DNA of 64,000 nucleotides from Apostichopus japonicus (Eukaryota > Echinodermata > Holothuroidea > Aspidochirotida > Stichopodidae), in contig NC_092583.1 of the NCBI RefSeq assembly GCF_037975245.1, positions 5,553,264-5,617,263 on the forward strand, read 5' to 3'. The position numbers and the translations under genes were made by a program. This document shows positions 1 to 21,804 of the stretch, one piece after another. The notes under the pieces are model-generated. The model made no database searches and was not told the origin of the DNA. It saw only the letters and a program-made list of their open reading frames with translations. Every line of letters begins with the position of its first letter. Position 1 is the stretch's first letter.

Positions 1-2
1 GC

Positions 3-74
3 ACAAAGGAAGATGGAAAGTTAAGCTCCATGGCAGAAAGTAGCTCTCCACAGGTTGTTAATGCTCAGGCATAA
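3..74 (+). CDS. Possible C-terminal tail of an off-window gene
   Basis: One plus-strand frame is open from the window edge for 23 codons to a TAA. Its composition is polar and Ser/Ala/Gln-rich (it ends SSSPQVVNAQA), which looks like a protein C-terminus, and non-coding AT-rich DNA follows. There is no domain, no visible splice acceptor and no clear AATAAA nearby, so this could be chance. The upstream sequence would decide it. Confidence 0.18.
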   Translation, partial: TKEDGKLSSMAESSSPQVVNAQA

Positions 75-2230: not shown

Positions 2231-3772
2231 TCATGAAGAAAACTGATCATGTGACATCATCGAAATCACAATGCATCTTTGCATTCAGGTTCAACATCCT
2301 AACCATGCATCCAACACATTGCTAGGTTAGAAATCACCTTTTAATCTGCCGAGTTGATATGGCGTAAACACTTCCGGTTACCTTTTGTTGTTGAAAGTTG
2401 TGCTTGTATGACAGGAAGAAGACAGTGGTATAGAAAACATCGATAACATTAAGTTACAATTTTACCAAAATTCCAATTATTTAGCAGTGCAACTATCCAT
2501 TGTTGATATGGGTGTGGAATTATTACAATGGATGTGACTACACCTGTAACAGTTGAAGTTTGCTTGAAAGTGGATCAACGCACGTGTCTTTCGCAACTGA
2601 AATACACGATAGCTTCATCGTAAAATATTGAAGCCCCACTCCTCCCCCATGGGTGCATAAATTATCGAAAACCAAAGCTTAATTTTGTAGTAATTCTTTT
2701 AAGCTAACTAGACAAGGAAATAGAAAGCACACTACTGGATACTCCAAAATCAATGGGGGAAGGAAAACAATCAAATCGAAGACCAGATCTTCGTTAGTTT
2801 TGACTAATATCTGTCGGGTGAACTAATTTGGACGTGAACTATTAGCATTTGGTTGACTGCAGAAATATATCACATAGAATGCAATACTGGTTTCTGTTAA
2901 TCCATACTGTTGCAGTTACGAGTTCACGAACAAAGGCTCTAAGAAAAGTGGTGCTCCCCGAAGTTACTATGAAACCATCAGTAAAGCACAGCATTTCAAA
3001 GGTGGTGAAGGGGGGGGGGCAGCTGATTTAGGTAGGCGACGAATCCTATGAATGGGCTTCCAGTGCCCGAAAGAGTGAACTATAGTACTTTCTAGACTGA
3101 ATGTATACGTCACGCGACATAGTACATTACCTCCGACTGACTAGCAACTCCATATACGCACACCATTGGTACACACGTATTGATAATTTGGTAGGGGTCA
3201 AAGGTCATTTATTTAGTTATGTTATATTTAACATTAAAGGGCATACTCGATTTGAAAAAAAACTTCATTTGTTCTCGTATACATATTCATGTATCCATTT
3301 CAAAAGAAATGCAATTTTCTTTGAACTGATGCACACAAAAGTTGCATAAATGGTGGAGCATTGATTTTTTACTATTAATATTACTATTATTATTATTATT
3401 GTTATTAACCTACTTCTTATAATGATTATAGAATAATTCCACTGTGCTCTATTTTCGGACGTATGTCTCCTTTCTTCTCTCAGAGCTTTTCTTCAGCTGG
3501 AGAAAGTAATTTCTATAGATTAAAAAAAAAAAAACTTTTTCCGCCGCGCAGAAGGTGCAAAACAATAAATAAGTCCTATGTCTCATTTCGTCTCTCCGAG
3601 CTCTGCTACGGAACATACGGGCAAAGAATTCTTATTCCGGTGGAGTTTCTGGGAGTCTCGATGCATAAGGAAGAGAATATGGACGAGGTTTGACTGGTAT
3701 GTAAATCAGTATTTCTTTATTCAATACACATGAGACGCAATGAACCTAGCACGAAACAGATACCTAAATACA
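2231..3772. other. Non-coding stretch without recognised genes
   Basis: It contains scattered stops, a short fragment of the GGTCAAAGGTCA repeat near 3190-3210, an ATT/TTA-rich run near 3380-3410 and an A-run near 3523. The small open frames lack start context, splice signals and any recognisable motif. Confidence 0.5.
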
Positions 3773-4036
3773 TTAAAGGGTAACAGCTACTTAAGGTGGC
3801 TATTACATAAATTACATCACTTGTCTGTGAACATGAATTAAAGGGTAACAGCTACTTAAGGCGGCTATTAAATAAATTACATCACTTATCTGTGAACATG
3901 AATTAAATAAAGGGTAACAGCTACTTAAGGCGGCTATTATATAAATTACATCACTTATCTGTGAACATGAATTAAAGGGTAACAGCTACTTAAGGCGGCT
4001 TTTATATAAATTACATCAATTATCTGTGAACATGAA
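3773..4036. repeat. 65-bp tandem repeat, four copies
   Basis: Four head-to-tail copies of a unit begin ATTAAAGGGTAACAGCTACT and end CTGTGAACATGA. Spacing is 65, about 69 and 65 bp; the third copy is longer because of an inserted AAAT. Copies differ by only a few substitutions (for example GGTGGC versus GGCGGC), which implies recent amplification. Confidence 0.85.
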
Positions 4037-5092
4037 CGTCGTCGCGTCTTCAAGTTAGGAATGCGTCATTGCGTGGAATTAAATAATATGAATGTTCATC
4101 CAGTTACAAATTGATGTATCCATCCAAGTATTCAGGGTTATTCACGATGATAATGGGTGAGAAATTTAATACGGTTAAGGACGGGTAAAAATTAAGCATG
4201 GATAAGTTAATGCAGAGTGGTAAGCGATGATCTGTTCCCAACGATGACGTAAAAACCTGTAAGATGTTACGACGATCACGTGGTTTCAGTAGTAACGGCA
4301 AACAGTACTGGATGACGTCACTTCATGGTGGGACGATTTCCCAGATAGGTGCGTTAACCTCATCACACTATACTGTTGTTGTGTTTCGATGTTACACCTG
4401 ATTAAAGAGACATTAAAGGTTAATTAACAATAATCAGAAACACGATTAAGGTCTGATTCGACTCCGAATTATTTGATATTTCTCTACGTCTGCTTACAAT
4501 TACTCACTAACAACTCCCAGACCGTGACTGGCGCAAGGTCCCAAGCCTTCCAGATGCAGAAACTTCGATTTAGTTATCTTGACCACATCATATGACATGC
4601 ATAATAATGAATACTTATGAATCAATAACCAATCACAATACTAAAGATGACCTTTGATTTTACCGAGAAAGGCATTATAGTCCTCTACACAAGACTATGC
4701 AACACTAAATTGTAGCAAATTCAACCAAAGTGAACCGTCCTTCAGATGATGTGCATTGTAGCGTCTGTAGTTTCTTTCATGGATTAGTCACAACCTTTAA
4801 CAAAATACTGTGATTATTGTTTTCATCAAATATCTCAAGTTCCAAAGAAAGCCCTAGTGGATATCATTGTAGGCACATGAATAAAAACAAAATTAAATGC
4901 TATAGTATTTACTCTTGTCTGCCTTTAACTAACATTAATGTGACCAATGCACCTCTTTAGTGTCTTTAAGCAACATCATATAGTATGTTGTAAGACAGCA
5001 AATGGTCAGGAATCGTAAGACTCACTTACGTTGATAACATCGAGCATTACTTTAATCACATTGGGTATTCAACTTCCTTTAATTACGTGAAT
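4037..5092. other. Non-coding stretch downstream of the domain gene
   Basis: No supported exon is seen. If the terminal exon proposed just upstream is right, the 3' UTR of the minus-strand domain gene would lie here, but I see no convincing AATAAA signal in minus orientation close to the stop codon. Confidence 0.4.
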
Positions 5093-5217
5093 TTAAGTAC
5101 CGCCTATTACGCTATTGTGTTTGTATGAACGTAAGAAATTATAGTTATGTTCGCTACAAAACCTTTCCAACTCACAGTGCCGAGAAATAAACTGAGCGAA
5201 CCCTTGGTTGGTCCTAG
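5093..5217 (-). CDS. Candidate terminal exon of the domain gene
   Basis: A CTTTCAG acceptor is followed by two bases and 40 codons to a TAA. The frame entered is the same phase 1 used by every upstream exon. The 40-residue peptide contains 'FISRHCELERFC' and ends 'NSVIGGT', with two cysteines. I recognise no family. The evidence is only a compatible acceptor, phase and stop, so a different last exon is possible. RNA-seq junctions would settle it. Confidence 0.35.
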
Positions 5218-5897
5218 CTGAAAGACTGTTTGGTTGTTTTCTGATATACAAAACGGCTACAAAGCAATCCCTTTTGATTTCCTTACAAATCAGATGCATA
5301 TAGAATCAAACCGCATAGTTAGATGTATCGGAACTGACATAGGTAAAGTTCACCACGTTACTGGCGGAGACCCCTGGCTGAGGAAAGGATCTGTGTAGTT
5401 GATGTTATTGACAGAACTTCTCACGAAAGCTGTTGAAGGAATAAGTATGGATATGTTTTATGTGTTAACGGATGATGAGATTTTTATTTAGCAAAAACCA
5501 ACAAAATATTCAACTTTAGTTTTCAAGATTCCGTAGAAAGGTCATGTTTAGATTTCAGATGTAAGAAGTCAATATTTTGACGTTGCACTCACCTAAGACC
5601 TACCTATATGTTAATCCATACTTTTTTGTTTTCATGTTAAAGGCCATGTGTACATCGAGACGTAGTGAAAACCGCCATCATCACTCTCTGATAGTCAGCA
5701 GATTATCGTTCCACGATATCTGCTGAACAATGTTAAATCTGGTTTAATTCATTTACCGGTGGTTACAACTATACCGTCTTCGACAAGATTATCACACAGT
5801 ACACACTTAATATTACTGACAATTCTTAGGATATATTGCTGCCGCTCACCAAGGCAAACGGTTATAAACCGTATCATGAAATAAGGTACAGACTTAC

Positions 5898-5951
5898 CCT
5901 GGTTTTGACGCTGAGAACACGACAGGAAGTTGTCAAAACTCCCACTTACCT
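5898..5951 (-). CDS. Candidate 54-bp phase 1-1 mini-exon
   Basis: An ACTCGCAG acceptor and a GTAAGT donor bracket exactly 54 bases that are open in the gene's phase and encode about 18 residues (VSGSFDNFLSCSQRQNQ). It would join D10 to the candidate last exon in frame. Size and phase fit, but the coding content is too short to be convincing and it may be chance. Confidence 0.3.
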
Positions 5952-6039
5952 CTGCGAGTAAATACAATATGAAAGTCATTCACCTTAAAAATGTTTCAAA
6001 TATCGAATTGTCGTATTTATCTAGTCATGGTGACATGCA

Positions 6040-6768
6040 ACACATCATGATACAGGACAACACATGAGGACATACGATACATCACGGTACAGGAGAACGT
6101 ACTTTGTATCACAACACATGAGGACATTCGATACATCACGGTTAAGGAGAATGTACTTTGTATCACAACACATGAGGACATACGATACATCACGGTACAG
6201 GAGAATGTACTTTATATCATGAACACATGGGGACATACGATACATCACGGTACGGGAGAACGTACTTTGTATCATGAACACATGAGGACATTCGATACAT
6301 CACGGTTAAGGAGAATGTATTTGTGTCACAACACATGACGAAATACGATACATCACGGTACGGGAGAACGTTCATTGCATCACAGCACATGAGGACATAT
6401 GATACATCACGATACAGGAGAATGTACATACATGTGTATGACATATCATACATCACGATACAGGAGAATGTACTTTGTATCACAACACATGAGGACATAC
6501 GATACATCACGGTACAGGAGAATGTACTTTGTATCACAACACATGAGGACATACGATACATCACGGTACAGGAGAATGTACTTTGTATCACAACACATGA
6601 GGACATTCGATACATCACGGTTAAGGAGAATGTACTTTGTATCATAACACATGACGAAAAACGATACATCACGGTACGGGAGAACGTTCATTGCATCACA
6701 GCACATGAGGACATATCATACATCACGATACAGGAGAATGTACTTTGTATCATAAACACATGCGATAT
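6040..6768. repeat. 54-bp minisatellite, about 13 copies
   Basis: The tandem unit contains GATACATCACGGTACAGGAG, AATGTACTTTGTATCA and CAACACATGAGGACATA. The best units repeat exactly every 54 bp, and variants alternate GGTACAGG, GGTACGGG and GGTTAAGG. Because 54 is divisible by three, several frames stay open across the array on both strands; these are artefacts and not genes. The array lies just past the last domain exon, in the presumed intron. Confidence 0.9.
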
Positions 6769-6895
6769 ATAACGATGGGACTCGTCACGATACATAAAGT
6801 CGTACAAGACATCACCATACATGAATACGAAACTAAAGATGCCGTGGTTGGTGTAAAAGTTAGTATTAGTTCAGCAATCATATTAGGCAGAATAC

Positions 6896-7103
6896 CTGAG
6901 CAGTTCATTTGTTTACAGGTAACCATAGATCCACCACCTGAGGGCATCTCAAGAGTAAACACCGGTTCCTCCCCTCTGCCTCGACTGAATTTAACGCACA
7001 TATAATTGAGATAGCCACATCCGAGCTGGCGAGTGTCTACCTTTTCCGTTATAATGTCAGAGAGTTGAATAGGTCCACCTTTGGGAAGGGTTGTCCCAAG
7101 CGA
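6896..7103 (-). CDS. Domain D10 (type C), second exon
   Basis: This is the C-terminal two-thirds of the tenth domain. A TTCTATAG acceptor opens in phase 0 at 'SLGTTLPKGGPI'. The exon then carries 'LGCGYLNYMCVKFSRG' and ends 'TCKQMNCS', with a TCAG/GTATTC donor in phase 1. The GCGxYxxxCxxF and CxxxxC signatures match D4 and D7 (type C). With its first exon it gives 134 residues, slightly shorter than sibling domains because the region around the internal intron lacks about six residues. Confidence 0.8.
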
Positions 7104-7308
7104 CTATAGAATAGACAATACATTGGTGAGTGAATCATATGCTGATTTTGATAACTTTTATCATATAAAATTATGGGACGATGAACAGTGTACTGCACTG
7201 GGAACTCCAAGCAAAGTTTGGAAGAGTAACTCGGTTTTTGCTTTGAACGGCATTCGGATCTCAGGATAAAGTAAGAAGATTTGCTGTTTAATTTTATACC
7301 TTATTTAC

Positions 7309-7502
7309 CTTTTTCAAGAATGAATCCGTTTTTATTTTGCCCTCAGGATCAGAGCTGGCAAACACCTCCAGTTTCCAAAGATCTTCCCCAGACACTGCGC
7401 GACTGTAAGGTTCGGTAGACGCAACCGCGTCGATACTAAGGGGACCGAATGATACGTCATCCGGAACACTGTACTCGAAGTCTAATCCAGTAAACACGAC
7501 AC
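7309..7502 (-). CDS. Domain D10 (type C), first exon
   Basis: A CTTATAG acceptor leads in phase 1 into 'VVFTGLDFEYSV', then 'SRAVSGEDLWKLEVFASS', the type C signature shared with D4 and D7. The frame ends at AAAAAG/GTAAAT in phase 0; a second possible donor nine bases further on, GTATAA, would add VNK. Unlike the one-exon siblings, this domain is interrupted by a 205-bp intron. Confidence 0.8.
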
Positions 7503-8319
7503 CTATAAGAAAGGTAAAAACAAAATAATAGCCTAGACATGAACATCTTTGCTTTGTGATTCCATTTAGCATGACTGTTTTGCGAGGCGGTTACAAACTG
7601 CTGTCAAACTATAGCTTAATTTAGAGACAGTGACCTTGGACGATCGTCACTCTATCTACATCGATACACAAGAGAGAGAAAGGTACGTGTACGCAATACA
7701 TTAATAGAGTATGTTACCTGCAAGTTACTGTTATATGACGGAACATTTCGGTTCATTGTTGCTACATTAGTAATACACATACAGTTAAGTTTATTGAATA
7801 AATTGGGTTAGAATATGTCTCGTATGTCTGCAATGTACAGATTATGCTTTCAAAGTCATTTAGACTATTCTAAGTTTATGCTCTAAAATATCCCAAAGTA
7901 GTTACTTCGGAGACACAACATATATTGAATAACGCAGCTAAACTCGTTGTAAACTCGTAAAATAACCCATTTGACGTTTGCCTTATAAACATCACAAGCT
8001 CAAATCTAAACACTAGTTTTGTGTCAAATCGTTTCACAGGCTCATTATTATCTGTCCGAACGTATTTGCCCTTTGTACAAAAAGCTTGGGTTTTCTACCC
8101 TGTAATGAATCCCCCAATCCATATATACATCTCTATAGAACGAATTATTGTATCTCGGCGATCGCAGATTTGATTATTTAGGAACTACCCATTGAAATGA
8201 ATTTCCTTCCTCAATACGTTCCATTGGCAGCCTGGGTTTGTTAAAATCAAAGATCAAAAGACACTTATTTCGTATTGCGTTCATTTCTTTGTACTTTGTT
8301 TCATTGATTGTGAAGCGCA

Positions 8320-8378
8320 TTGTAGAATGCTCGGCAGATTTGGCGCTTTATCAGTGTACTATTATTATATAAAGTAGG
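8320..8378 (+). repeat. LINE/SINE-like 3' tail (GCGCTTTAT...ATTATTAT)
   Basis: Within an intron, a GAAGCGCATTGTAGAATGC motif is followed by GGCGCTTTATCAGTGTACTA and TTATTATA. The same AAGCGC...GCGCTTTAT...TTATTATT pattern occurs near 18.5 and 32.8 kb. I associate such tails with 3' ends of non-LTR elements in marine invertebrates. It lies antisense to the domain gene. Confidence 0.5.
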
Positions 8379-8760
8379 AATATATCTTTATCATAATGCA
8401 GACTTATGTAATTGCTTACATCACCTGTGTGTTGTATGTTTTCTATTGTTACAAGAGGCTCTTGTTTTGCACAGTTTAATATATTGCAAGTTATGAATGT
8501 GTACATAGTAGCCTATTGAAACAGATAAAGATGGCGACAAACATATAGAACAGTCATGCAATTTGAATCAAATTTTCTCATTAACAATCAAAGACCACTA
8601 AACGCATACAACTTATAGAATGCATCATCACCTCATAGGAACCGGGAGGTACAATAACATACTTTTAAGAATGCTACAACCTTTTTGTAATTGCAGAAGG
8701 CCGCTGCAATTCAAATATAACGGTGCCAACACAAGGCTGGACTAACACTTGGACTATGAT

Positions 8761-8941
8761 ACTTTTTAAAAAAAGTCACCTGGGCACGAAAACCAAACTA
8801 CCGAACGACTGATCCGCACTCATCCCCAGTCCCTTTGCATCGGGACTGTGACTGTGTGATCATCGTCGAATGTGCATCACCATTCCCCTCGAAAGGGAAC
8901 AGATACTATACACATGATCTTAGCCAAAAGGCCGAGAAGCG
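8761..8941 (-). repeat. U2-snRNA-headed dispersed element, copy 1
   Basis: Read on the minus strand it begins GCTTCTCGGCCTTTTGGCTA and continues through the U2 branch-recognition region (GTAGTATCTGTTC here interrupted as GTATAGTATCTGTTC). It then departs from U2 into an unrelated body with CACAGTCCCGATGCAAAGGG, TTCGGTAGTTTGG and CGTGCCCAGG, and ends in a T-run. A full U2 gene would continue with the Sm site and 3' stem-loops, which are absent. It sits in the D9-D10 intron, in the same orientation as the gene. It is probably a SINE-like element with a U2 head. Confidence 0.75.
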
Positions 8942-9029
8942 AATATTGGAATATGAATCTGTGTGTATTTATCATCCACAAGCAAAACGTGGTGTACCAA
9001 GCAAGCCCGATTCATAAACTAAATCTCAC

Positions 9030-9446
9030 CTTTACAGCGTGATGAAATATCTATACATTTCAAAACATCTCCTCCAAATTGGTAGTTAATGCTCGATTCC
9101 GGATTCTTGGTTAATTCATAGCATACAAAAGGTATTTGATCACAAGTGACATCCAAATCAACGTCAAATATTGTTTCATTGAACATTAAATCGTCGCCAT
9201 GATTAAGGGTGAGACTTGCTTGAGAATCATCCAATACTTGTCTCGTTTCATAGATTCTTTCTCCCAGACCGTCGTCTTGATCGGAGAAGAAGGTGTTTAA
9301 TTGCCAGAGTTCATCACCTCCTACCGACGTCGACCTGTCTTTATCAGTCGGGGCAAATATCGTGGTGCTCACCCTTTCTTTCTTCGAGTTTTCAACAAAT
9401 ATGTCAGGTTCGTTTATTGATGGTTCAAGATCAGTGAAGAAAACTC
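9030..9446 (-). CDS. Domain D9 (type B), single exon
   Basis: A GTCCTAG acceptor and an AAAG/GTGAGA donor, both phase 1, bound 139 residues. It starts 'VFFTDLEPSI', then 'TSVGGDELWQLNTFFSDQ', 'GLGERIYETRQVLD', 'CDQIPFVCYELTKNPESS' and 'CIDISSRCK'. The FFSD...G.G.RI motif, IP(F/Y)xC and KNPxSS place it with D3 and D6 as type B. All four cysteines are present. It lies between type A D8 upstream and type C D10 downstream, closing the third ABC set. Confidence 0.88.
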
Positions 9447-9893
9447 CTAGGACATAAACAAAGAAAGTCAATTAGAGAGTAAAACACTGGAAGCTAAAAG
9501 AAGAAATACTGCGTGGACATCCGACTGTAGTAGTTATTGTGGTGATCCATTATAGTATAGCGACAAAAATCTGATTCTTCTGCCGAAAAAGATGAAGTTC
9601 CGTCATCGGAAATTGCACCATTACATAATGAAAGATATAATTGCAAACAACCCAGCAGGTCAAAATAGTCACTTTTACAACTTGTTGACCTGGTACTAAA
9701 TTATTGTTTAATATTCAAGTATTAGCTGCGAGAATGTCTTTACTCCTCACTACGTGAATGGCCTTCCAAATCAATTTGAGCAAAGTAGCATTACTGGATA
9801 TCGTTTCTTTGAGCTGGCTGCTAAAAGCTAACCCTAAACAGCCATTCCTGCATTGTCGGCTTACGTAAAAACAAACATACTATTGAAACGTAC

Positions 9894-10163
9894 TTGCATT
9901 ACAATCTTTTGGCTTGCAGTTTACAACTGACTGTTCTGGTAGTGCATCGCTAGTTGATGGCATGATCAGAGTAAAGTTAACAGAGGGCTTTTCCGCCTTC
10001 TTCAATGCAATGCAAATATGGGAAAACTCATTGCAACCAATCGAACCGATGTCGAATAAAGCATCTGTATCATTGAATGTAATGGAGTATTCCTTAGTAA
10101 CTGGAATCGAGGCTTGGTCTTCAGATAGTATTTGAGGTACTTCTCCATACCTGACACCATCCC
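9894..10163 (-). CDS. Domain D8 (type A), second exon
   Basis: A TATTTCAG acceptor opens in phase 1. The exon encodes 'DGVRYGEVPQILSEDQAS', 'FDIGSIGCNEFSHICIALKK' and 'VVNCKPKDCNA', ending A/GTACGT in phase 1. 'IGxIGC' and 'CKPxxCxA' match D5 closely and D2 more loosely, which defines type A. Joined to the first exon, the split glycine codon restores a G-D-G sequence and a 146-residue domain. Confidence 0.85.
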
Positions 10164-10324
10164 CTGAAATATAATAAATATTATAGATGCGTGAATCTTG
10201 TGAGATATGATAGTGAATTAGGAAACTAGGAATTAGGAAACAGTTGATTAATATACGTGTACGTTTCGTTTTGACTTGTATGATAACTTGAATTTACAAC
10301 CTCAACTGTGTCAATGACATTTAC

Positions 10325-10492
10325 CTGTGGGAGTCGTGCTACCAAATAAGGACACCTGCCAAAGATTTTCACCATCTAATGTCTTCGACTGATCACCAAA
10401 GTCTGCGACTATGTCTAGAACAACAGGAGATAACTGACCGGGAATCACAGGTTCGTGTGTCAGCTCCCAAGATAAATCATCAAAGAAGATTG
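10325..10492 (-). CDS. Domain D8 (type A), first exon
   Basis: A CCTTTACAG acceptor in phase 1 leads into 'IFFDDLSWELTHEP', a VLDIVADF strand and 'KTLDGENLWQVSLFGSTTPT', then ACAG/GTAAAT in phase 1. This is the N-terminal third of a type A domain (compare LFGS in D5 and LYGS in D2). The intron falls in the variable loop after the F-G-S motif, and neither D2 nor D5 has it. Confidence 0.85.
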
Positions 10493-10621
10493 CTGTAAAG
10501 GAGGTAGAGATGGTGCAATTTATGTCATTAATAGGTTAAAGGAAAGTTCATAAATAGAAATAAGCATTCATTTCATAAACTTATGCATATTGAAGTGCTT
10601 CTATATTGACATCAAACTCAC

Positions 10622-11050
10622 CATCACAATTATATTCCACACACTGTTTCACGGTGTCGGCGCCATCGGTTGTTTCAAACGAAAAGTCTGGATCTGAGAC
10701 TTCGGACTTACGCAGTTCTAAGCAAAAGTGTTTGTAATCGCCGCAGCCCAGTAAGTCAATTGGATAAGGAGGGGTCACAACGTTTCGAAATATTAACGGT
10801 CCGCCGTCTTCTACGGGAGTTTTAGCTTGAGATGTTGATAAAACTTGCCGGAATCGAGGCCCAACTTGATTGTCTCCATTACTATCACTACTGGCAAACG
10901 CTGATAACTTCCACAACCGATTCCCCGCTACATCCCTTGACGCAGGAACCAAGTCAACTGTGACGTCACCAATAATTGGACTCAACTCTCCAGGTACATG
11001 TTCCCTATCCTCACCATCCGGGGACCAGGTAAGGAACCTAGCGACAACCC
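10622..11050 (-). CDS. Domain D7 (type C), single exon
   Basis: A TCCTTTTAG acceptor and a GATG/GTGAGT donor, both phase 1, bound 143 residues. It opens 'VVARFLTWSPDGEDRE', then 'SRDVAGNRLWKLSAFASS', 'GPRFRQVLSTSQAKTPVE', 'LLGCGDYKHFCLELRK' and 'QCVEYNCD'. The AFASS and GCGxYxxxC motifs are shared with D4 and D10. Four cysteines are conserved. Confidence 0.88.
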
Positions 11051-11986
11051 CTAAAAGGAAACACAGCTTTAGATGACTTGATCACTTGAATAAATTACAT
11101 TAAACTATAAAACATGGGCGGAAACCAAATCTTGGTTATCAAGAGACTCGCAGAAACATTTACCAGTAAAACCATCATGCCGTTAAAAAGTCCAACTACG
11201 AGTTTATTCACAGACGATACAGATGTAACAGTTACCATGATCATTTCTTTCGATGCTTCATTCTTAGCAAACAATTTCTTGCTAATGCGCGCCTAAGCTA
11301 CAAACCTGATGTGACAATGTCGATCAAACAGTAGGTATAATTTCCCTTTAACCTGCGAAATATTCAAGTAACTAACAAATTATGCAAACTGCGCCTCGTA
11401 GGAAAGAAGGTTGAATGAGGCATTTTATGCTTACAAGAATAGAGCAAGCGCGAGAACGGGACACTATAGCGCATAAAACATAGACACTTTAATATTACGC
11501 TTTCCCTAAAGAACAAGCCGTCATAGGGACATAATAATTGAGTTCATTATCATTATCATATAAAATGTTACTTAGCTGTTAAGGGAGCGATATGTATTGG
11601 TCACAAATTTGATCGAATCGTATATGTATGCTCTAGGTAATGGAAACAACGTTGAACTCTCTCAGTTTTCTGCGATGAAGTTTCTATGGGGCATTTAATT
11701 TGTATTATCTGAGCCTTTCCTCAGTTTAGAAGGCATATAATACCTTTCGGAAAATACAATATAAAAGTGATTGCTCATAAGTTTGTGTAACATGATTGTC
11801 TTAAAACATGTATAAATAATTGAATCTTCCTGAGATTGGTTTTGTTCCTACAGCACATTTGGGTTTGTAATACCTTCATCTGCTGTTCCAGTGTGAATTA
11901 AGGAGAGATAATTTGTTTAAAGAAACTTTATAGTTTTACTGCCACATATTGTAAATTACAATTCCAATAAAACTGAAAACACAAAC

Positions 11987-12421
11987 CTTTGCATAAATCA
12001 TCGGTACTCTTACAATCTACTAGAGGTTCCTTTTGTGGTTCTGGCTTAAATTTAAAATTGACGCTGGACTCTGGGTTCTTGCGTAGCTCAAAACAAACAT
12101 AAGGTATAGTTGCACATTGAACATGAGATAAATCGATCGGAAATTCAACCTCTGCAAATAATAAATTTTCATTTTTCCGTAATGTCTGGCTGATTTCTTC
12201 TTGGTCCAAAATCTGAGTTTGCTCTCTGATTCTTATGCCTTTTCCAGATCGTTTGTCGGAGAAATACGTTGCAACACTCCAAAGATTTTCTCCTGACACA
12301 AATGAAGATTTTGCTTTGTCGGTAACACCATCAAGTGAAACTGTTATACGCTGATTTGGTTGGGCTTCAACGATCATCGTAGAGTTAGGAAACGATGCAG
12401 AAAGCTCATCAAATACAACCT
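11987..12421 (-). CDS. Domain D6 (type B), single exon
   Basis: A CTTTGCAG acceptor and an AAAG/GTTTGT donor, phase 1 at both ends, bound 145 residues. Motifs are 'VVFDELSASFPNS', 'SSFVSGENLWSVATYFSD', 'GKGIRIREQTQILD', 'CATIPYVCFELRKNPESS' and 'CKSTDDLCK'. It is the closest relative of D9 and D3. The longer open frame that starts upstream at 12476 only reads through the intron. Confidence 0.9.
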
Positions 12422-13466
12422 CTGCAAAGAGACAACAGCAGGATAAAAAATACGTCAGATCTCCATAACACTTCATTAAATAACGAATTTATGTACATGT
12501 TTTCTGCAGGATGGTTGGCGTCTTTTTGTATGAAACTCACCGGGTAGCCTAATAAGTTTGGCTTATCATATAATAATCATATTATATCAGAAACAGCTCT
12601 TTCCGAAGGTTGTATTTGCCCAAACGTGGTGAAGGATATATGATTGAGGATCTATATTAGCATCTACTAAAAATGTAAACAAGAAGGCAATCCATGAAGT
12701 TGTAGATCCCAAAATATGTTTATAAATATAACTACTATAATGACATCATTATGACTCACCAAGTTTAAAGAACAACAGCCTTGAATTTTCCAGGTCCCAT
12801 GACCTTTCACATTTGATAAAGATTAATATCAGACATTCATTTAAAGAATGCAGTCACCCTTCCTCATTGAAACGACATTTGCAGGTATTTTTTCGTGTGG
12901 CATTTACATAATAGCTAAAAAGAACATTCTTTTACTAAATTAAAATTTATAGCATTCCTTGCTCAGCAATTAACTTTGGTCACCGGAATTTCCTTGATTT
13001 TAAACTTGAAATGGCCAACCACCCATGTTAGGTCATTTTGGTATGTGCACAAGTGAGCACTAGCGTTTGCCTTAATTGAGGCACTGTGGACATAAATTGT
13101 GTAATATTCTACTTGTTTTTGAAGGTTTCGGCCATATTGCTATTTTGGTATAAGTGTGATGGCCATAATGCTCATATTCGGTTATTTGACAATTGACATT
13201 TAACCCTACGACGTTCCGACAAGTACCATGGAGTGGGCTTTGTTTTGTAAGTAGGTGGAATAATAATAGGCACAGAGGCAAGAAGTTCTGTTATAGTAAA
13301 GTGTCTTCAAGTGTCAATTATATTTAAAAATAATATCTTTTTAAATATATCAATTATATCTAATGGTTGACTCAATAAGAATATAGCTGCCAACGCAACC
13401 AGCTGTTTTAATCAATTTATGAACACGCTTAAGCGCACGCACTACACCATGAGTTTAAAAACCTAC

Positions 13467-13904
13467 TTGCGGAACACTCCTGTGGTTTGCAGCTTACGAG
13501 AGATTTCGCGTCAAAGCCACCATTCCGCTCTATTAACATTACGTAGTCAGGTTCGGGATCGGCGTTCTTTGTAAGTTCTATACATACATAGTCAAGTCCT
13601 TCCACACAACCAATAGTTCCAATCTCGAACTGAGTTGTAAACGTGCCAAATTCTACAGGCATTTGATTAATAACTGGCTTTGACATCCCCTCATCACTCA
13701 GTACTTGGTAAACCTCGTCGAATTTTTGGCCTGTTCCGTTCTGTGACATAGACCCAAAGAGACCAAGCCGCCACAATCGAGCACCGCTTATATCTCGAGT
13801 ATCCTCTCTCAAGTTAACTGTGACATTCAGAGTGACATCTGTCTTACGCTCTGGTTGCGGGTTTTCAGCAGAAATCGCCCAGTTTAAATTATCTGGGGTT
13901 ACAG
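13467..13904 (-). CDS. Domain D5 (type A), single exon
   Basis: A TTTCTTCAG acceptor and a GCAA/GTAGGT donor, phase 1, bound 146 residues. Motifs are 'VTPDNLNWAIS', 'REDTRDISGARLWRLGLFGS', 'GTGQKFDEVYQVLSDEGM', 'IGTIGCVEGLDYVCIELTK' and 'VSCKPQECSA'. It shares REDTRD, the DxNW/DFDW opening and the CxAS-type ending with D2, so it is type A. Confidence 0.9.
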
Positions 13905-14244
13905 CTGAAGAAAGACAAGAACGGATGTGAAATTGTCATGAATATGGGTGAATGAAACATAAATGTGCTCCTAACATAGAAAGTTTTCTCTTATAGCTTG
14001 AACACTTGATCATCGAAACTCAAATTAGGAATTTGTACTTGATTATGTGATGTCCTTGCCCATGATATTCTGGTTTTTATTTACATCAGTCTTTTTGGGC
14101 ACGTGTAAGCAACCGATTCACCCAAAACAACATAACAGATTTACACATTTAAAAATGGATACACCTGGGCTTCTATATGATAAATTGACATTGATGATTA
14201 GCACAGCCGTTGGTTATACTACTGAAGACGCTGAACGCACATAC

Positions 14245-14682
14245 CTTGACACGACATTTCTTGACAATTGAGAACGGTTTTCCCTCCAGCTTCTTCGTTA
14301 AATGTGAACTCAGTATCTGTATTCTCAGCTTTCTTAAACTCGTAACACAAAAACCTGTATTTGCCACACCCCATTCGATCAACTTGAAATGGAGGAGTTT
14401 CCATATTGTAAAACCGTAGAATTCCATCTTCAGGAACTGGAAGACCAGACTGTTCATCGGTGAGAATCTGTTCAAAATAGGGCGGAAGAATGTCCTCTGG
14501 AGCAGCTTCTGCGGTACTACTTGCAAAAACAGACATTTGCCAGAGTGAATCACCTGTGACATCCCTGCTAACAGATTCCACATCGACCGAGGCATTACTA
14601 ACAATACTTTGGACAGGTTCTATTGGACCATCGATAAAACTGGGGAATTCTCCTTCCCATTCAAGATTTTTAGCAATGATAC
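14245..14682 (-). CDS. Domain D4 (type C), single exon
   Basis: A TTCTGAAG acceptor and a CAAG/GTATGT donor, phase 1, bound 146 residues. Motifs are 'IIAKNLEWEGEFPS', 'SRDVTGDSLWQMSVFASS', 'PYFEQILTDEQSGLPVPE', 'RMGCGKYRFLCYEFKKAE' and 'LNCQEMSCQ'. The VFASS and GCGxYxxLC motifs identify type C. An upstream in-frame Met-rich stretch looks like a signal peptide but is intronic. Confidence 0.9.
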
Positions 14683-15057
14683 CTTCAGAAAAAGTAGTGA
14701 AAAGAAGGAAGATATTTAGTTGGTTCATTTGTTTCCATCAAAAACGCATTTAAAGAGCCTAAACAGGAGCAATGGTTGTTTAACGTATGTATTGAAACAA
14801 AACTCTAAAACCACTACAAATTCGTTTTGCCTTTAAACCTTAGCTTCAACTGATCCTCGTGCACATACTGTATACATGCAGTACAGGGTTTTGAGCCAGG
14901 AATGGTGGTATAGATGAATTAGATGTTTATAGCTAGGTATATGCTTTTGAAAGCAGTTTTTAGTTTATGCCATACCGATATTTTTTCTAGAACACAACGT
15001 TGTTGACGAATATTGAGGCAGACTTGGTGTGGACAACTGAACATGTATAGATCTTGA

Positions 15058-15093
15058 AAGATATATATATCTATATCTTTCGAGATCCAGCTT

Positions 15094-15133
<40 letters not shown>

Positions 15134-15182
15134 AATATAAATATATTTATATATTTATTTATGCATATATATATTTTTTCTT
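15058..15182. repeat. TA-rich microsatellite
   Basis: Interrupted (TA)n and TATATT runs lie in the D3-D4 intron. They begin with a short inverted repeat around AGATATATATATCT. No coding or regulatory role can be argued. Confidence 0.85.
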
Positions 15183-16030
15183 TAAACAACCCCTAATTGC
15201 CACCTTTCATATAACAAGTGCCCAGTTTGGGAAGAAATATTCATTTTCGTTTAACTAATCTATAAAAAGTCCTTTTGTTGAAGCTAAATAAAAATGTAAT
15301 TAAAAAAAAAGTCCAGTTGTTACCAACTAAGAAGAAATTCTTATGATAAAAGTGCCCTTATGTTGAAGAAACTTAACTGCTGGGAATTTTTGATGCGGAA
15401 TGTCCAATTTGCCGGAAGTTTTTTTTTAGTAATTGTGTGGTGTATCCCCTCAAAAAGGGGGATATTCTATAATAGTGAAGAACTTCCCCTTCAGAGTTTT
15501 TCTATCCGTAAGGATGTTTTAAACTAAACAAAAAATATCCCCGGATTAAATACCCCTGGGAGATTTTACACTGTTACACAGGAAACCATGGGAAGATTAC
15601 TTTCAGGAATTCCTTGTTGTTTGTTTCCCGAAAGGGAACGATGGAGTCACTGTTACTGACCTTGTAAAATTGTGGGGGGGGGGGGGGCGCGGATATCAAA
15701 GTCGGCGATGACTATAACGCGGATCGCCAAGTCAGTAATTACTATTACGGTTAGATTTTTCCAACATTGCAGTATACAGAAACGTTGTAATCAAAGCCGA
15801 AGCCAAATTTTATTAATCAGGTCACACTTCCCAAGTCTATGTATGCTAAATTCTTAAAAACCACCCATATAACGGGGAAACGTTTGATAATGTACTTTTA
15901 ATTCTGTAATTGAACTTGTGGAGTTGGTTTAGCATTATGGGTACTTTCTGTCGCAATATTATACGCGACAAACACTTCAAAACGACACTTCTTTGTTACT
16001 AAACGTAGCACACTGAATGCACGAGCATAC

Positions 16031-16465
16031 CTCTACATACGGATGACATATCAAGACATCCGACGAAAGGGTCCTGTTTTGGCTTGGTACCAAATTCGTA
16101 ATCAATACTTGAAGATGGATTTTTATTCAGTTCGGTACACATATATGGAATGTCACTGCAGACCAGTCTGCTCAAGTCAACTTCGAATACTACGTCTTCA
16201 AAGAACAAATCCTCGCCTACAGTAAGTGTCTGCATCTGCTTAACCGGATCAAGTACATACAATTGCTCATCAATTCTCTGCCCAAATCCAGATTGTTTCT
16301 TGCTGAAGAACACGTTCATTTGCCACAGCCTTGTCCCTTCAACAGTTGTCGAGAGAAGTTTGTCCGTGACAGCATCGATGTTTAGTTTAACAGTTTGTCC
16401 TGGAGTATTCTCTATCAAAGCTCTTGGTGACACGATTTCAGGAACTAACTCAGTAAAAACGGCTC
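16031..16465 (-). CDS. Domain D3 (type B), single exon
   Basis: A TTCTCTAG acceptor and an AGAG/GTATGC donor, phase 1, bound 145 residues. Motifs are 'AVFTELVPEIVSP', 'STTVEGTRLWQMNVFFSK', 'GFGQRIDEQLYVLD', 'CSDIPYMCTELNKNPSSS' and 'CLDMSSVCR'. FFSx...GxGxRIxE and KNPxSS place it with D6 and D9 as type B. Confidence 0.9.
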
Positions 16466-16962
16466 CTAGAGAAAAACAATGGAGAGTTTAATCGCAAAAC
16501 TACTTCCAAACAAGCAATTTTTATACTAACAAAACAACTCTGTGTTTTCCCGGGGGAGGGGATGGGGTTCATGCTCTTCGCTATCCCTCATTTTTCCCTA
16601 ATGATACTCTAACCCACGTTTATGTAGGAATCATTAAAAATCCTTTCGAGTGATTTGTGTTGAATACTACTTACTCCATCATTAACTACTGATGAACAGT
16701 CTTGGATTAAAGGAGGCCTAAACGCTGTATGCAAACGAAATTAACCAACATAGTTAAATAAATTAAGCAGTACATATTTCTAAAGCACTGCCTTTTTAGG
16801 GACTGAAAATATACACTTCTGTTAACGCGCCCTCTTGAACCCCCCCCCCTTCCCACCAAGAAATAAGATTGTCACCAGATTCTACCTCCCCCTCCCCCCA
16901 GTCTCAACTTTTATCGATTTATTAGGCTACCTCCGACTTTATCGTAATCCTGCGAGACTTAC

Positions 16963-17391
16963 TTGCACCACATTGTCGAGCTACACATTTAACAGATGAT
17001 TCTTTTTCAACTATCTGACCATATTCTCCCAAGAATTCCAGGGTAAAGTCTGGCTGAGAGTTCAATCCTTTCCGTAATTCCAAGCAAACATATGTCGCGT
17101 CTGGAGTACATCCAATCATGCTTAAATCAAATTCCGTACGTATATCACGGAGTTGAAGCTGCTCGGCATTTTGTATCGACTTGCTTGCCTGCTCTCGATT
17201 TAAAATTTGAGTAACTTCTCCAAATTTGTCACCAGTTCCCTCTTCATTATCGCTTCCATAGAGCGTTGACTGCCATAAACTTGTTCCTTCTAGATCTCTC
17301 GTATCTTCTCTGAAGTCAACATCGAGATCAAGACTAACCTCTCGTCCCTCTCTTGGCTCGATGGACCAATCAAAATCGTCGATCACGACAC
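16963..17391 (-). CDS. Domain D2 (type A), single exon
   Basis: A TTGTAAG acceptor and a GCAA/GTAAGT donor, phase 1, bound 143 residues. Motifs are 'VVIDDFDWSIEPREG', 'REDTRDLEGTSLWQSTLYGS', 'GTGDKFGEVTQILNREQ', 'SMIGCTPDATYVCLELRK' and 'VKCVARQCGA'. It resembles D5 most and D8 next (type A) and begins the first ABC set. Confidence 0.9.
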
Positions 17392-18026
17392 CTTACAATG
17401 AAAATGAAAGAATATAATGTTTACAGTTTTACTGACATTTATTTAATGTGTTGCCAGTTAATTTGTGGCAGACTACATGCATCCTTTGAGTTGAGTTTCA
17501 GAGATGTTTGCGATACTAAAATAGCATTGCAATAAATGTCTTTTCACATGACCAGCCAATTTCTTTAACTAGTTGTGAAAGTCGTAGTTTGCAATTTGCT
17601 TAATGCTTTTGCTTTAATACTACTATGAAAAGGTTCGAGGGGCCTCTTGCCAGTGAACTCATAGGGAGACTAATCTCTAAACCGGTCGTGTTTTACATTA
17701 ATGTACCTATTGCCCAATAACCAGACAAACTTACAGCAATTTTTTTGAAGAAAGTTGAAAATATTCGGGTAAGCAGCACGCCATTTGTGCCTATACCTCC
17801 GACAATTCTACACTGCGTGACAATACAGTAGTGGGATTTTTCAAGTTTCTGTAAATTATTTGTAGAAGATGTTTGTAAAATTATCTTAGGACTTGCATCT
17901 TAACACTGTTCTCGATCCCATACGTACTCAGTTGATTAACAATAATTATTAATAGTAGTTTTACCAGAGGTCATTGTCTTAAACTCCAAAAGTCACAAAG
18001 TAGGATTAATATTCGGCATAACTTTT

Positions 18027-18147
18027 TTCTAATAGGGTTGTGAATGAGTGGAACGGTTTGCCTGAAAAAAATTGTACTTACAAGTAGTGTCAATGGGTTT
18101 AAGAATGCTTTGGACAAGCACTTTAAGCATTGTAATCGGGTCTGAGT
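18027..18147 (+). pseudogene. Non-LTR RT C-terminal fragment with frameshift
   Basis: The plus strand reads 'VVNEWNGLPE', then after a one-base shift in an A-run 'IVLTSSVNGFKNALDKHFKH', then a stop. The pattern W-N-x-L-P followed by S-V-N-x-F-K-N-x-L-D is typical of C-termini of non-LTR reverse transcriptases. It is a short, broken copy lying antisense in the D1-D2 intron. The AAGCGC/TATTATTATA tail near 18.49-18.56 kb probably belongs to the same insertion. Confidence 0.65.
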
Positions 18148-18489
18148 GTTTGTGTTTTCAGTTTTTTAGGTTCCTTGATGGGGACTTGAGTGTCCCTCCT
18201 GATCCTTTTTTTTCTACTAAACTATTGTGAATCTGAGTTGGAGAACTTTTGCTGTAAAATTGTGAACACTTCGCTCGAATTAAAAAAAAAATTCTTACCC
18301 CAACTTACTTATGTGATATCTTGCATCAACAAACTAAAACGATACCCTCTAGTTAACAATATGTTAACCAGTGAATGAGAACTGACACCCAGTATACATT
18401 AGGTCTCTTGAGTCACTTGATCAGTTTAAGCATCGTCTTAAAACTTATCTTTTTGCATATTGTTATTAGATGTTTCCTCCTTTTGTCTT

Positions 18490-18560
18490 CAGCTATAAAG
18501 CGCATTGATTAACTTTTTTTTGGACTCTGTGCTATATAAAACTAAGTGCTATTATTATAA
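18490..18560 (+). repeat. LINE-like 3' tail
   Basis: AGCTATAAAGCGCATTGATT and GTGCTATATAAAACTAAGTG are followed by CTATTATTATAAAA. It matches the layout of the tails near 8.3 and 32.8 kb and follows the reverse transcriptase fragment about 340 bp upstream, so it likely marks that element's 3' end. Confidence 0.55.
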
Positions 18561-19444
18561 AAGTGTCCGAGTGACAATGTTGACAATCGTCTCGAATTCG
18601 CTGTGGCTTATTAACCTACAGTGTGACAAATTTAGCAATGCGCATCCTTGTAAAGTTGGATAGGGTCAAACTAAAAACGCTGCACTTACATGTAAGCTAA
18701 AGCTTTTATTGCACATAAGAAAGCTAAAGTTTAATCGGCTAATGATTAAAAATCGTAAGATAGCAACCTGAAAAATGTAAACTCATGCACGGATGTTTTG
18801 TGCGCAATACTATAACGCTAAGCAGTTGGTGTCTAGGATGTTCAACAGTGAGATCCTGCTTCTGAATACCTGCTTCCCTTTGGCAAGTTAAGACTGCGTT
18901 TATTATACAGCGTACAACTTTATATATGTTACAGCTTATTTAAGCTCAACTTATCTTGTTTATTTTATTTATAGGGTTATGATATTGAACTATATTTTCT
19001 TGTCAAACTATGAAAAGTTTGTACTCTTAAGCAATTCTTATCCTCTGTAAACATTAAACATAGATGTATTACATCTCTCAATTCCACTCCCACTGTCATG
19101 CTTCTTACCTATTGTTTTTTATACTGTGTTTCATTATCATTTACAAACAATCACTTTTGAAAACTACGGGAGTGGTGATGAGAGACTTGGGACTGCCATA
19201 AAGATCCGTCAAAGATGACCGTTGTACATGTAATTTCGAATCCTTTGTTACCTTATGTAGACGCTATAAGTGTGATCTGATCAAAGCCTCTTTCTATTTC
19301 ACATCAATTGGACCCGATAAACAGGCAAACACAGAGACTGAGATTCATATGCACGGACACACAAAGAACATTGATGAACAATAACTGGACAGTCGAACAA
19401 GCAGTCAGAGATAGAAAGAGTACTTGCATAACGATTGACCTCAC

Positions 19445-19900
19445 CCTTGCATTCTGGAAGAAGTGCACAAGCGACCAGGCGGGTATCATCGCCGTTTTGA
19501 GGACCAAAACTGAAATCCAGATTGAACTCTGTTTGGATTTCATCCCCTTTATTAAACTTCACGCACAGATATTTGAAGTCTTCACATAATCCCCTTCTTC
19601 TTCCTTGTAAGTCCAGAGTCAAATTGGCAAACTGCCAAGGTGGATAATTCGGTTTCGAAAAGCTGGAATCCTGCTGCTCCTGGCTCAAAACGTTTTCATT
19701 GTAAAATAATCGAGACCCAGTACCATCAAAATTTTTACTGATCCAAGCACCCATACTCCATAAATTTTCCCCATTGACGTTGCGAGATGTTGATTGCTTG
19801 TTGATTTCTATTCCTACGTCAAAGGTAACTTCCTGGTTTTTACCCTCTATTATCGGATCGTCTTTGAGTAGAACGCCCTCTACTCGAGAGACAACCATTT
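19445..19900 (-). CDS. Domain D1 (divergent), single exon
   Basis: A TCGATGCAG acceptor and an AAGG/GTGAGG donor, phase 1, bound 152 residues, the longest copy. It carries 'MVVSRVEGVLLKDD', 'TSRNVNGENLWSMGAWISK', 'GTGSRLFYNENVLSQEQ', 'GLCEDFKYLCVKFNKGDE' and 'VACALLPECK'. The LW motif and all four cysteines are kept, but WISK replaces FxSS and an RRR stretch precedes the first cysteine, so it fits none of types A to C. It stands outside the triplicated unit. Confidence 0.88.
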
Positions 19901-20527
19901 CTGCATCGAAATAAACATGAACAATAATAGCCATACGATGTTTCATTTTGTGACTTGAAAGAAACTGTAGATGGAAATATAAAATGAACCAACGTGACTA
20001 CACGTGGATGAGCATTGTTGGAGATGAGGGCGTATTCGAAACAAAAAATATGTAACTGTGCTCTATACACTTTCTACCATCTTGACAAAATGTACAATAT
20101 CTTATGAAAAGGGGTTTTGATTAGCTGTTCTACAGTGAAAAAGAGTACAGAAAACAATTCTTGAGAGCTAATTTCGTAAAATGGTCATTTCAAGATGTTT
20201 TTTTTTATCTTGGAATTGATGAAAATGGTTGCTTTAAGACTATGGACGTCTTGCACAAACGTCAATATTTTCGGTATAAGTTCCGTTAACGACAGTTTAT
20301 AAAGAATACATCACAGCAAACCTTTCAAATGTAGTTTCAGAGAGTTTGTTTCTCATATGACAGAACATATTACCGATTGCGGAAAATGGCTTTACAACGT
20401 AATTACCAGATATCATTTACCCCAGATTAAAAAATGCACACATTCTAGCCTCTATTTAATTGTTTGTGAAGATAAGCGGCCACCCAGAATACCGATGTGG
20501 TTCATATCCAAGTAATGATGTACTTAC

Positions 20528-20734
20528 CAGGTGGGCATTTCTTACAGCACTCGCCGTCTATTTTCACTTGTTCAAAGAAGTCGCACGTAAGTGTTGGGCA
20601 AGTCTCGTAGACACAATTGGTAGTTCCATTATTGCAATAGCACCTGGAGCATTCGTCAACAACCCAACGCTCGGTATGAAAATATTCCTTTCCTTGATAG
20701 ACACATGCATTGGCATCGTTTGGATCATCGGGAT
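20528..20734 (-). CDS. VWC (chordin-like) domain exon
   Basis: This 69-residue exon has an ATTCGCAAG acceptor and a CCTG/GTAAGT donor, both phase 1. After an acidic linker 'PDDPNDANA' it shows the von Willebrand factor type C pattern: C-V-Y-Q-G, a W-x-V-D-E-C-x-x-C-x-C core, C-V-Y-E-T-C, and a C-C-K-K-C-P-P ending, ten cysteines in all. VWC modules bind TGF-beta/BMP ligands or mediate matrix multimerisation. Here it sits right after the signal peptide and before the repeated domains. The longer frame's hydrophobic start upstream is not needed if the distant signal exon is spliced in. Confidence 0.88.
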
Positions 20735-20830
20735 CTTGCGAATTACAGAACAAAACAACACTGAAGCATATTATCACATACCGTAACGGAATTTGGTGAT
20801 GTTCGCATATGTTTTCAATCAAGAAACAAA

Positions 20831-21021
20831 TACTTTTTAAGAAAAAGTCGCCCAGGAAAGAACCTGGGCACGAAAACCAAACTACTGAACGACTGATCCG
20901 CTTCTAACCCCGCTGTCCCCTTGCATCGGGACTGTGACTGTGTGATCATCGTCAGGTGTGTATCACCATTCCCTGAAAGAACAGATACTACACATGATCG
21001 TAACCAAAAGGCCGAGAAACA
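20831..21021 (-). repeat. U2-snRNA-headed dispersed element, copy 2
   Basis: Read on the minus strand: TTTCTCGGCCTTTTGGTTAC, then GTGTAGTATCTGTTC, followed by the same non-U2 body as copy 1 (CACAGTCCCGATGCAAGGGG, TTCAGTAGTTTGG). Its 3' part is fuller than in copy 1: CGTGCCCAGG, TTCTTT and CCTGGGCGACTTTTT form a stem-loop followed by a T-run and an AAAAAGTA end. It lies in intron 1, about 100 bp upstream of the VWC exon. Confidence 0.75.
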
Positions 21022-21350
21022 AATATTCGGCATTTAATACCACTGGTATATATATTCCTTTTTATGTCGCTTGTGTGCTTCACTATACAGTGGAGACATA
21101 CTTTTGCTCTCGCTATGAAAGAACATGACTGAAACTATCATTTTCTAAGGAAAGTAGAAACAATTTCCAAAGTTTTACAAAGGTATTCACCTTACAAATA
21201 TGAAATTTATCCAAGCTTGACTTTCTCTGAGTAATGGTGTTTATCCGTTGTTTGACTTTCACCGCTGTTAATCGCACATGACCTTTGACCTTTCAAGTTC
21301 TTGTACTCAGTAAGTTGGATGGACACACCAAATCCAAATGTGAAGTTCAC

Positions 21351-21353
<3 letters not shown>

Positions 21354-21406
<53 letters not shown>
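21354..21406. repeat. (AT)n microsatellite
   Basis: An uninterrupted AT dinucleotide run of about 26 units in intron 1. It creates long Tyr-Ile frames on both strands that are not genes. Confidence 0.97.
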
Positions 21407-21536
21407 CTAGAGTCATCGTGTTTACAACCAAACTCATCACATCCACCCACACGAACACAGACGCCTATGGTAGGCCCTATGGGACAAATAATTTTTTTGG
21501 AGTATATTAGTGTGTAAATAAAATATTCACACGTTT

Positions 21537-21804
21537 ATATTAGTAGCCAATCGGAAGACCAAGTCATATGGTTGTATTAAATCGAGTATGTTCACGTACT
21601 AATTCGACTATATTCGCGTATTAATTCGAATATATGCGAGTTTTAAATCAGCCAATCACATTAGCTTGAATACGTACACGTATTAAATCGAATATGTACA
21701 CGCATTACATCAGCTGATTTAATACGTGTATATATTCGTAATAATTCGCTTATATTTGATTACATGCAAACATATTAGTCAGCCTTCTAATTGGCTGCTA
21801 ATAT
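21537..21804. mobile_element. MITE-like inverted-repeat element, about 270 bp
   Basis: The ends read ATATTAGTAGCCAATCGGAA and, in reverse complement, ATATTAGCAGCCAATTAGAA, an imperfect terminal inverted repeat. The interior carries repeated TTAAATCGAATATG-like and ACGTATTAA motifs, also in inverted pairs. There is no coding capacity and the target-site duplication is unclear. It is probably a miniature DNA transposon in intron 1. Confidence 0.55.

Follow-up and report, generated by a model that had tools for sequence, protein, structure and literature searches.

The window, a stretch of 64,000 nucleotides of Apostichopus japonicus DNA, carries on its minus strand a gene in which nine consecutive domains, D2 to D10, alternate as ABC-ABC-ABC without exception. 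The order is confirmed by a phylogenetic tree, by sequence motifs and by the identity of domains at fixed lags. Judged from its exons, the gene is probably a matrix gene composed of SURF modules only, with the predicted architecture VWC-N-(ABC)3, and its history is best explained, with similar probability, by an origin from a procollagen segment and by unequal exchange between like exons.

Exon structure and domain order of the window gene

A VWC domain, the first module D1 and nine further modules are encoded by 13 in-frame minus-strand exons with GT-AG sites. When joined, the exons give 1,507 codons without a stop, and every between-module boundary is in phase 1. The VWC exon (positions 20528-20734; Pfam VWC PF00093, E 9e-11) is in phase 1 at both ends, and is followed by D1 (19445-19900), a SURF-like module of the first-position type, N. 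Type A modules are D2 (16963-17391), D5 (13467-13904) and D8, the last split by a phase-1 intron into exons 10325-10492 and 9894-10163. Type B comprises D3 (16031-16465), D6 (11987-12421) and D9 (9030-9446). Type C comprises D4 (14245-14682), D7 (10622-11050) and D10, which a phase-0 intron divides into exons 7309-7502 and 6896-7103. Each of the ten modules contains exactly four cysteines and is 133-152 residues long; published SURF modules have 140-145 residues. The open phase-1 donor at the end of D10 calls for a further exon, which a search downstream did not find, and the gene model is without its first and last exons. Comparison of open reading frames in the 3' flanks gave, among those listed, repeats, recent copies and pieces of modules, and no nameable shared last exon.

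The initial annotation, which had proposed the ABC order, placed the outer ends of the nine domains exactly (6896 and 17391), and the lengths of ca. 3.5, 3.4 and 3.6 kb it gave for the three sets agree with the 3,487, 3,412 and 3,597 bp obtained from exon coordinates. Its motif signatures fit in 25 of 27 motif-by-domain cells, and fail in D6 (YFSD instead of FFS) and D10 (GCGYLNYMC instead of GCGxYxxxC). The C-type end was scored as CxxxxC plus at most one residue, because the final G is split between two exons. Each of the nine motifs is absent from D1 and from all domains of the other types. The period-three statistic for D2-D10 was reached in 36 of 20,000 random orders, and mean identity reached 35.7% and 34.7% at lags 3 and 6, versus 24.0-26.4% at lags 1, 2, 4, 5, 7 and 8.

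In a tree of the ten window domains alone, type B was firm (support 100/99) and type C less so (60/51), while type A was split in the best tree, with a single A group not rejected (p 0.41). Clustering of domains with their neighbours, which the initial annotation had set against its own reading, was rejected in the ten-domain tests (p 1e-104, 3e-12 and 2e-4). Once paralogous modules had been added, the type groups became firm: in a tree of 105 modules, all from the A. japonicus genome and with fragments above E 1e-5 excluded, N, which unites D1 with the first modules of its relatives (100/94), A (99/93), B (100/97) and C (98/96) were each a supported group. Not one of the 58 position-labelled modules was misplaced, the other 47 rows carrying no label. 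These four types are ancient kinds of module.

The triad family in the genome

Four protein searches of the genome yielded at least 111, 83, 102 and 136 overlapping matches, part of which was taken into the analysis, and 12 loci of the triad family entered the tree. The tree excludes loci on C3, C20 and C21, at 16.6-16.8 Mb on C4 and at 15.9 Mb on C23, N-only matches at 11.42 and 11.445 Mb on C23, and most of C17 and C19. It also excludes two loci on C23, at 11.579 and at 11.631-11.635 Mb, that matched A and B but, among the matches listed, not C. One included locus, Q4, is a composite of two loci separated by about 7 kb that lie outside the data.

The nearest paralogue of the window gene, P2, has N plus 12 modules in strict ABC order (4 of 20,000 shuffles), and six other loci have one set (VWC-N-A-B-C). 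Thus, the modules after N come in threes at eight of the 12 loci (N+9, N+12 and, six times, N+3), and copying of the ABC block as a unit is supported. The remaining four loci are without some modules: Q5 and Q6 are N-A-B, Q7 is N-B and S1 is N-A-C. Because Q1-Q7 are near-copies of one another, the 12 loci count as fewer than 12 independent instances.

Each of modules 1-8 of the window gene has its own partner, in the same position, among modules 1-8 of P2. The support is 99/94 for D2 with P2_02, 100/91 for D3 with P2_03, 100/100 for both D4 with P2_04 and D5 with P2_05, 100/95 for D6 with P2_06, 100/98 for D7 with P2_07 and 99/97 for D8 with P2_08. D10 pairs with P2_13 (100/93), and D9 is nearest to P2_12, weakly (76/66). 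Two within-module introns common to both genes agree with this pairing, the intron of D8 being at the same site in P2_08 and that of D10 at the matching place in P2_13. Compared with P2, the window gene is minus one B-C-A stretch, three modules out of ABC register. A blastn comparison of window positions 5001-23000 with P2 gave no matches at E 1e-5; with no DNA similarity left between the two, the breakpoints are unreadable.

In R1 and R2, which are one-set genes, B is nearest to the first B found in the window gene and in P2 (85/62), and C to the last C there (91/76); the remaining B modules group with the Q genes (92/83). This pattern, a weak one, hints that the one-set genes may descend from many-set ancestors, and speaks against simple growth from one set. 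Many-set genes may have arisen from one-set genes by growth, or one-set genes from many-set ones by shrinkage.

Procollagen relatives and probable SURF identity

Two further genes, T1 and T2, contain a VWC followed by 16 and 12 modules, respectively, homologous to those of the window gene, then Gly-X-Y exons and a COLFI fibrillar-collagen C-propeptide. This siting of the homologous modules between VWC and triple helix makes it very probable that the window modules belong to the echinoderm SURF kind, likened to those of sea urchins by description. The window gene itself meets the VWC side only. The T1 and T2 arrays alternate two kinds of module, with a period of two and not three (10 and 35 of 20,000 shuffles), and a lone A-B-C run inside a procollagen gene is formed by T2_06, T2_07 and T2_08, which lie beside A, B and C in that order. 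A Pfam scan of the window gene matched VWC only, with no family for the eight repeat modules scanned, and a profile of eight modules had no match among PDB sequences (best E 0.31). Rfam at gathering score returned no match, nor did a search for EGF-like patterns on the minus strands of the window and eight loci.

No collagen-like run of four or more Gly-X-Y triplets was present in the 24.9 kb below the window gene (window positions 1-6896, L025 and L029), a scan blind to shorter runs and to exons further off, whereas below T1 and T2 such runs are many (in L027 and L028), lying some 1 kb past the final module. The flanks of P2 and R2 likewise have no collagen-like Gly-X-Y runs. The 20 COLFI matches listed in the genome are on C4, C22 and C8, with none on C23 among those listed, although weak matches may be missed. 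Within these bounds, no collagen triple helix accompanies the SURF modules of the window gene.

The procollagens of sea urchin resemble T1 and T2. Published accounts give 11 SURF modules for the 5alpha chain (PMC10817530) and possibly a VWC plus 16 SURF modules for the long form of 1alpha (PMC2852846). In these chains and in 2alpha, a VWC precedes a series of four-cysteine modules, as it does in T1 and T2 before their collagen parts; the window gene differs in that no collagen part lies within the 24.9 kb downstream of it, and in that its modules repeat in threes instead of the twos of T1 and T2. Another close counterpart, by description, is fibrosurfin, which PMC10817530 presents as an interfibrillar sea urchin SURF protein of unknown function and does not itself call a collagen. 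In the portions of the sea cucumber and echinoderm literature on VWC, fibrosurfin, SURF and tandem families that were available, no SURF-only triad family was found.

Proposed history of the triad and competing explanations

We propose that a piece of a procollagen N-propeptide array, with kinds alternating X-Y-X, would have become a separate gene carrying A, B and C as a triad. Like exons, with phase-1 joints throughout, would then have exchanged unequally, so that whole sets were gained or lost; the window gene probably lost one stretch, B3-C3-A4, in this way. As like types pair, each such exchange shifts the number of modules by three without disturbing the ABC order. A comparable case, according to PMC1553488, is nebulin, where several domains are copied at once, in units of seven, and such copying produces an identity peak at a fixed lag. 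The window gene shares this peak. It differs from nebulin in that each module corresponds to a single exon joined in phase 1 (apart from a few modules with an extra intron) and in its unit of three, the unit in the related procollagen arrays being two.

The initial annotation had instead traced the three types to a single domain that was tripled and diverged, with a second tripling of the resulting block. Block copying of the triad stands. The rest of this history is extremely unlikely, since a single A+B+C clade is rejected under the model used (AU p 0.00014, or 0.00054 with the procollagen triad T2_06-08 added), a branch (96/99) of the 105-module tree separates A and C from B, and the nearest paralogue has four triads, from which the window gene differs by a B-C-A stretch and not by an ABC block. 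Gene conversion could also keep every third module alike, so that the tree would record exchange among like modules and not block duplication; it is possible wherever like exons pair and may have acted before the window gene and P2 separated. However, the one-to-one pairing of modules 1-8 is unblurred since that split, and within-type identity in the window gene is 27-46% only, which makes conversion a very improbable source of the pattern.

Selection for specific contacts among A, B and C, tolerating only whole triads, would fit the unbroken order in the window gene, P2 and six one-set loci, as well as the distinctness of the types despite great divergence. We consider it unlikely: modules were lost at four loci, the modules of the wider superfamily in T1 and T2 stand in a different order, and exchange between like exons suffices to explain the B-C-A change, so that the order needs no structural selection. 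The earlier suggestion that subtype roles require a fixed order is, accordingly, not borne out, exchange itself keeping the period of three. The open donor of D10 and the last exons not found would also agree with a procollagen gene that has its collagen exons at a greater distance downstream or at an unmatched site; given the Gly-X-Y and COLFI results, and a spacing of ca. 1 kb in T1 and T2, there is next to no likelihood of this.

Preferred over these readings, unequal exchange acting on a procollagen-derived triad would make the window gene a clear case in which the way modules are copied can by itself yield a strict domain order, without structural demand. A two-type array and a three-type repeat of the same family are present in one genome, and the graded series of one, three and four triads is available for testing what such rods do. 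By likeness to sea urchin fibrosurfin, the product may be a secreted rod built from about ten beta-sandwich modules, lying between collagen fibrils of mutable connective tissue. A bolder, unlikely extension is that the freed propeptide segment gave rise to at least 12 SURF-only loci in which the triad acts as the rod's functional register and the number of triads (1, 3 or 4) sets its span; if true, triad count would tune mutable connective tissue via reach between collagen fibrils.

AlphaFold models of D5 and D6 are confident (pLDDT 90.7 and 86.5, respectively) and all-beta. The best Foldseek match, Spo0M (E 1.1e-3 and 2.5e-3 for the D5 and D6 models; TM ca. 0.4), is read as a common arrangement and not as a sign of kinship. 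VIA-align, run with D5 only, gave Z of at most 7.4, among unrelated sandwiches.

Alternation of module types in the window gene

The window is located at C23:5553264-5617263, and its minus-strand gene contains 13 exons, all with GT-AG borders, that encode a VWC domain and ten modules, D1-D10, with two exons each for D8 and D10. The joined exons provide 1,507 codons without a stop. Each module is 133-152 residues long and contains four cysteines, and every module-module boundary is in phase 1. An open phase-1 donor at the end of the last D10 exon indicates that the gene continues further; its first and last exons were looked for and not found.

The initial annotation described D2-D10, the modules following the first-position (type N) module D1, as a strict ABC-ABC-ABC alternation of three types, and motifs, lag identity and a 105-module tree all confirmed it. 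With the nine motifs that had been proposed, 25 of 27 motif-by-domain cells fit (the exceptions are YFSD in D6 and GCGYLNYMC in D10), and none of the motifs was present in a window domain of another type. For lags 3 and 6, mean pairwise identity of window modules was 35.7% and 34.7%, respectively, versus 24.0-26.4% at other lags, and the period of three was equalled by 36 of 20,000 random orders. When a tree was built from the ten window domains only, topologies that grouped neighbours were rejected; type B was recovered as a group (100/99), type C weakly (60/51), and type A not as one group, a single A group not being rejected (p 0.41).

To collect further modules, the genome (671,581,487 bases, 35 contigs) was searched with D5, D9, D7 and D1 as protein queries, and at least 111, 83, 102 and 136 overlapping matches were listed, respectively. 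The 105-module tree was built with modules from the fetched part of matched loci of this genome; 58 rows had been assigned a type (N, A, B or C) from their position beforehand, and 47 were unlabelled. Each type formed a single group (N, 100/94; A, 99/93; B, 100/97; C, 98/96) and none of the 58 labelled rows was misplaced, in a tree that rests on 140 columns only and leaves many deeper forks open.

Two U2 snRNA-like stretches on the minus strand, one inside the gene (window 8854-8943) and one just upstream of it (20929-21023), scored 43.6 and 43.8 bits, below the Rfam cut-off of 46, and are probably retrocopies. A minisatellite with a 54-base unit (window 6003-6807) lies directly below D10, and a plus-strand ORF of 385 amino acids (window 32971-34128) is reverse transcriptase-like by the look of its sequence.

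Probable relation to SURF modules of procollagens

Two genes on C4, T1 and T2, contain a VWC exon followed by 16 and 12 modules, respectively, that are homologous to those of the window gene. Below these modules, on the same strand, are many Gly-X-Y exons and COLFI matches (C4, 8435227-8437062 for T1 and 8360833-8363519 for T2). T1 and T2 are fibrillar procollagens. Some sea urchin chains are described as having four-cysteine modules, named SURF, in a series that follows VWC and precedes the minor triple helix; VWC and 16 SURF modules may be encoded by the 1alpha gene (PMC2852846), and 11 are reported for 5alpha (PMC10817530). Because homologous modules follow VWC in T1 and T2, as published for SURF, the window module is very probably a SURF module by context and homology, the sea urchin SURF being set beside it by description only. 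Within 24.9 kb downstream of the window gene, no collagen-like run of at least four Gly-X-Y triplets was observed. The genome search for COLFI listed 20 matches, none of them on C23. A SURF-only family in a sea cucumber was not met in the literature searched.

AlphaFold models of D5 (pLDDT 90.7) and D6 (pLDDT 86.5) were confident and all-beta, with generic matches only in the PDB. Judging from the family, the product may be a secreted rod of beta modules between collagen fibrils. A structural need for the ABC order, suggested initially, is possible, and the data do not require one.

Proposed origin of the A-B-C triad

In T1 and T2, identity was higher at even lags; a period of two was equalled by 10 and 35 of 20,000 shuffles, respectively, and shuffling revealed no period of three. 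Even positions share the A + C side of a branch (96/99) in 7 of 7 cases in T1 (modules 2-14) and 5 of 5 in T2 (2-10), while none of the odd positions does (0/7 for T1 3-15, 0/5 for T2 3-11); the last module of each gene is an exception to this rule. In the 105-module tree, T2 modules 6, 7 and 8 adjoin A, B and C, respectively, with the order kept. Since T1 and T2 alternate two types and T2 modules 6-8 match A, B and C, the triad looks like an X-Y-X piece of a two-type array, and could have arisen as such a three-module piece. The history proposed initially, in which one domain tripled, diverged and tripled again as a block, is supported in part. Copying of ABC as a block is supported; a single A+B+C clade was rejected (p 0.00014; p 0.00054 with T2 modules 6-8 added), which speaks against local tripling of one domain. 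Copying of several domains together is a known mode, as in nebulin, where it occurs in sevens (PMC1553488); a contrast of two-type and three-type repeats was not met in the literature searched.

Module number and order among paralogues

The nearest paralogue, P2 (C23:1.77-1.79 Mb), contains N and 12 modules in strict ABC order (period three equalled by 4 of 20,000 shuffles). Modules 1-8 of the two genes pair one-to-one (eight supported pairs); for D10 the partner is P2_13 (100/93), and for D9, weakly, P2_12 (76/66). Two of these pairs share an intron inside the module: in D8 and P2_08 it is in phase 1 and precedes the same Asp-Gly, and in D10 and P2_13 it is in phase 0, at a matching place. 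Because these pairings of modules 1-8 and of D10 with P2_13, and both internal introns, agree, the window gene lacks B3-C3-A4 relative to P2. This step of three modules cuts across the register of the ABC sets and leaves the order ABC. Exactly this difference would result from exchange between A-type exons three and four, or between the adjoining introns. A new gain in P2 would be the converse; P2_09-11 have no close copy inside P2 (best identity 36-38%), and it is therefore more likely, though not proven, that the window gene lost its counterparts long ago. No DNA similarity from which breakpoints could be read is left between the two genes. Such an out-of-register step was not met in the literature searched.

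Six other loci (Q1-Q4, R1, R2) are N-A-B-C, and four are incomplete: Q5 and Q6 are without C, Q7 without A and C, and S1 without B. Q5, Q6 and Q7 retain a broken C start. The module count is N+3k in 8 of the 12 triad-family loci of the tree, which are not independent cases, since Q1-Q7 are near-copies. Of the 12, 11 have a VWC exon preceding N; the exception is S1, where 5.5 kb were examined and no such exon was detected. In R1 and R2, B is placed beside the first B of P2 and of the window gene (85/62), and C beside the final C (91/76); the other B modules join the Q genes (92/83). Either of two histories would fit this weak pattern: growth starting from a single set, or shrinkage of one-set genes from a many-set ancestor.

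Outside the tree, two more C23 loci, at 11.579 and 11.631-11.635 Mb, had A and B but no C among the matches listed. At C4:16.63-16.82 Mb, matches form a cluster in which most are partial and many cover ca. 60 residues of a module's first half; the cluster may be either a divergent branch or half-modules. C17, C19, C20 and C21 contain many N-type matches (e.g., loci L024 and L026), near which the matches listed include few of type A, B or C, or none; in L024, two VWC-like and two N-type stretches alternate, the second VWC being weak. The modules of short arrays on C7 (L020 and L021, at 20.34 and 20.385 Mb) all group with A and C, and no B-like module intervenes. On C6, an array of five modules and one of four (L022 and L023) make up a separate group (94/78), pairing across both loci.
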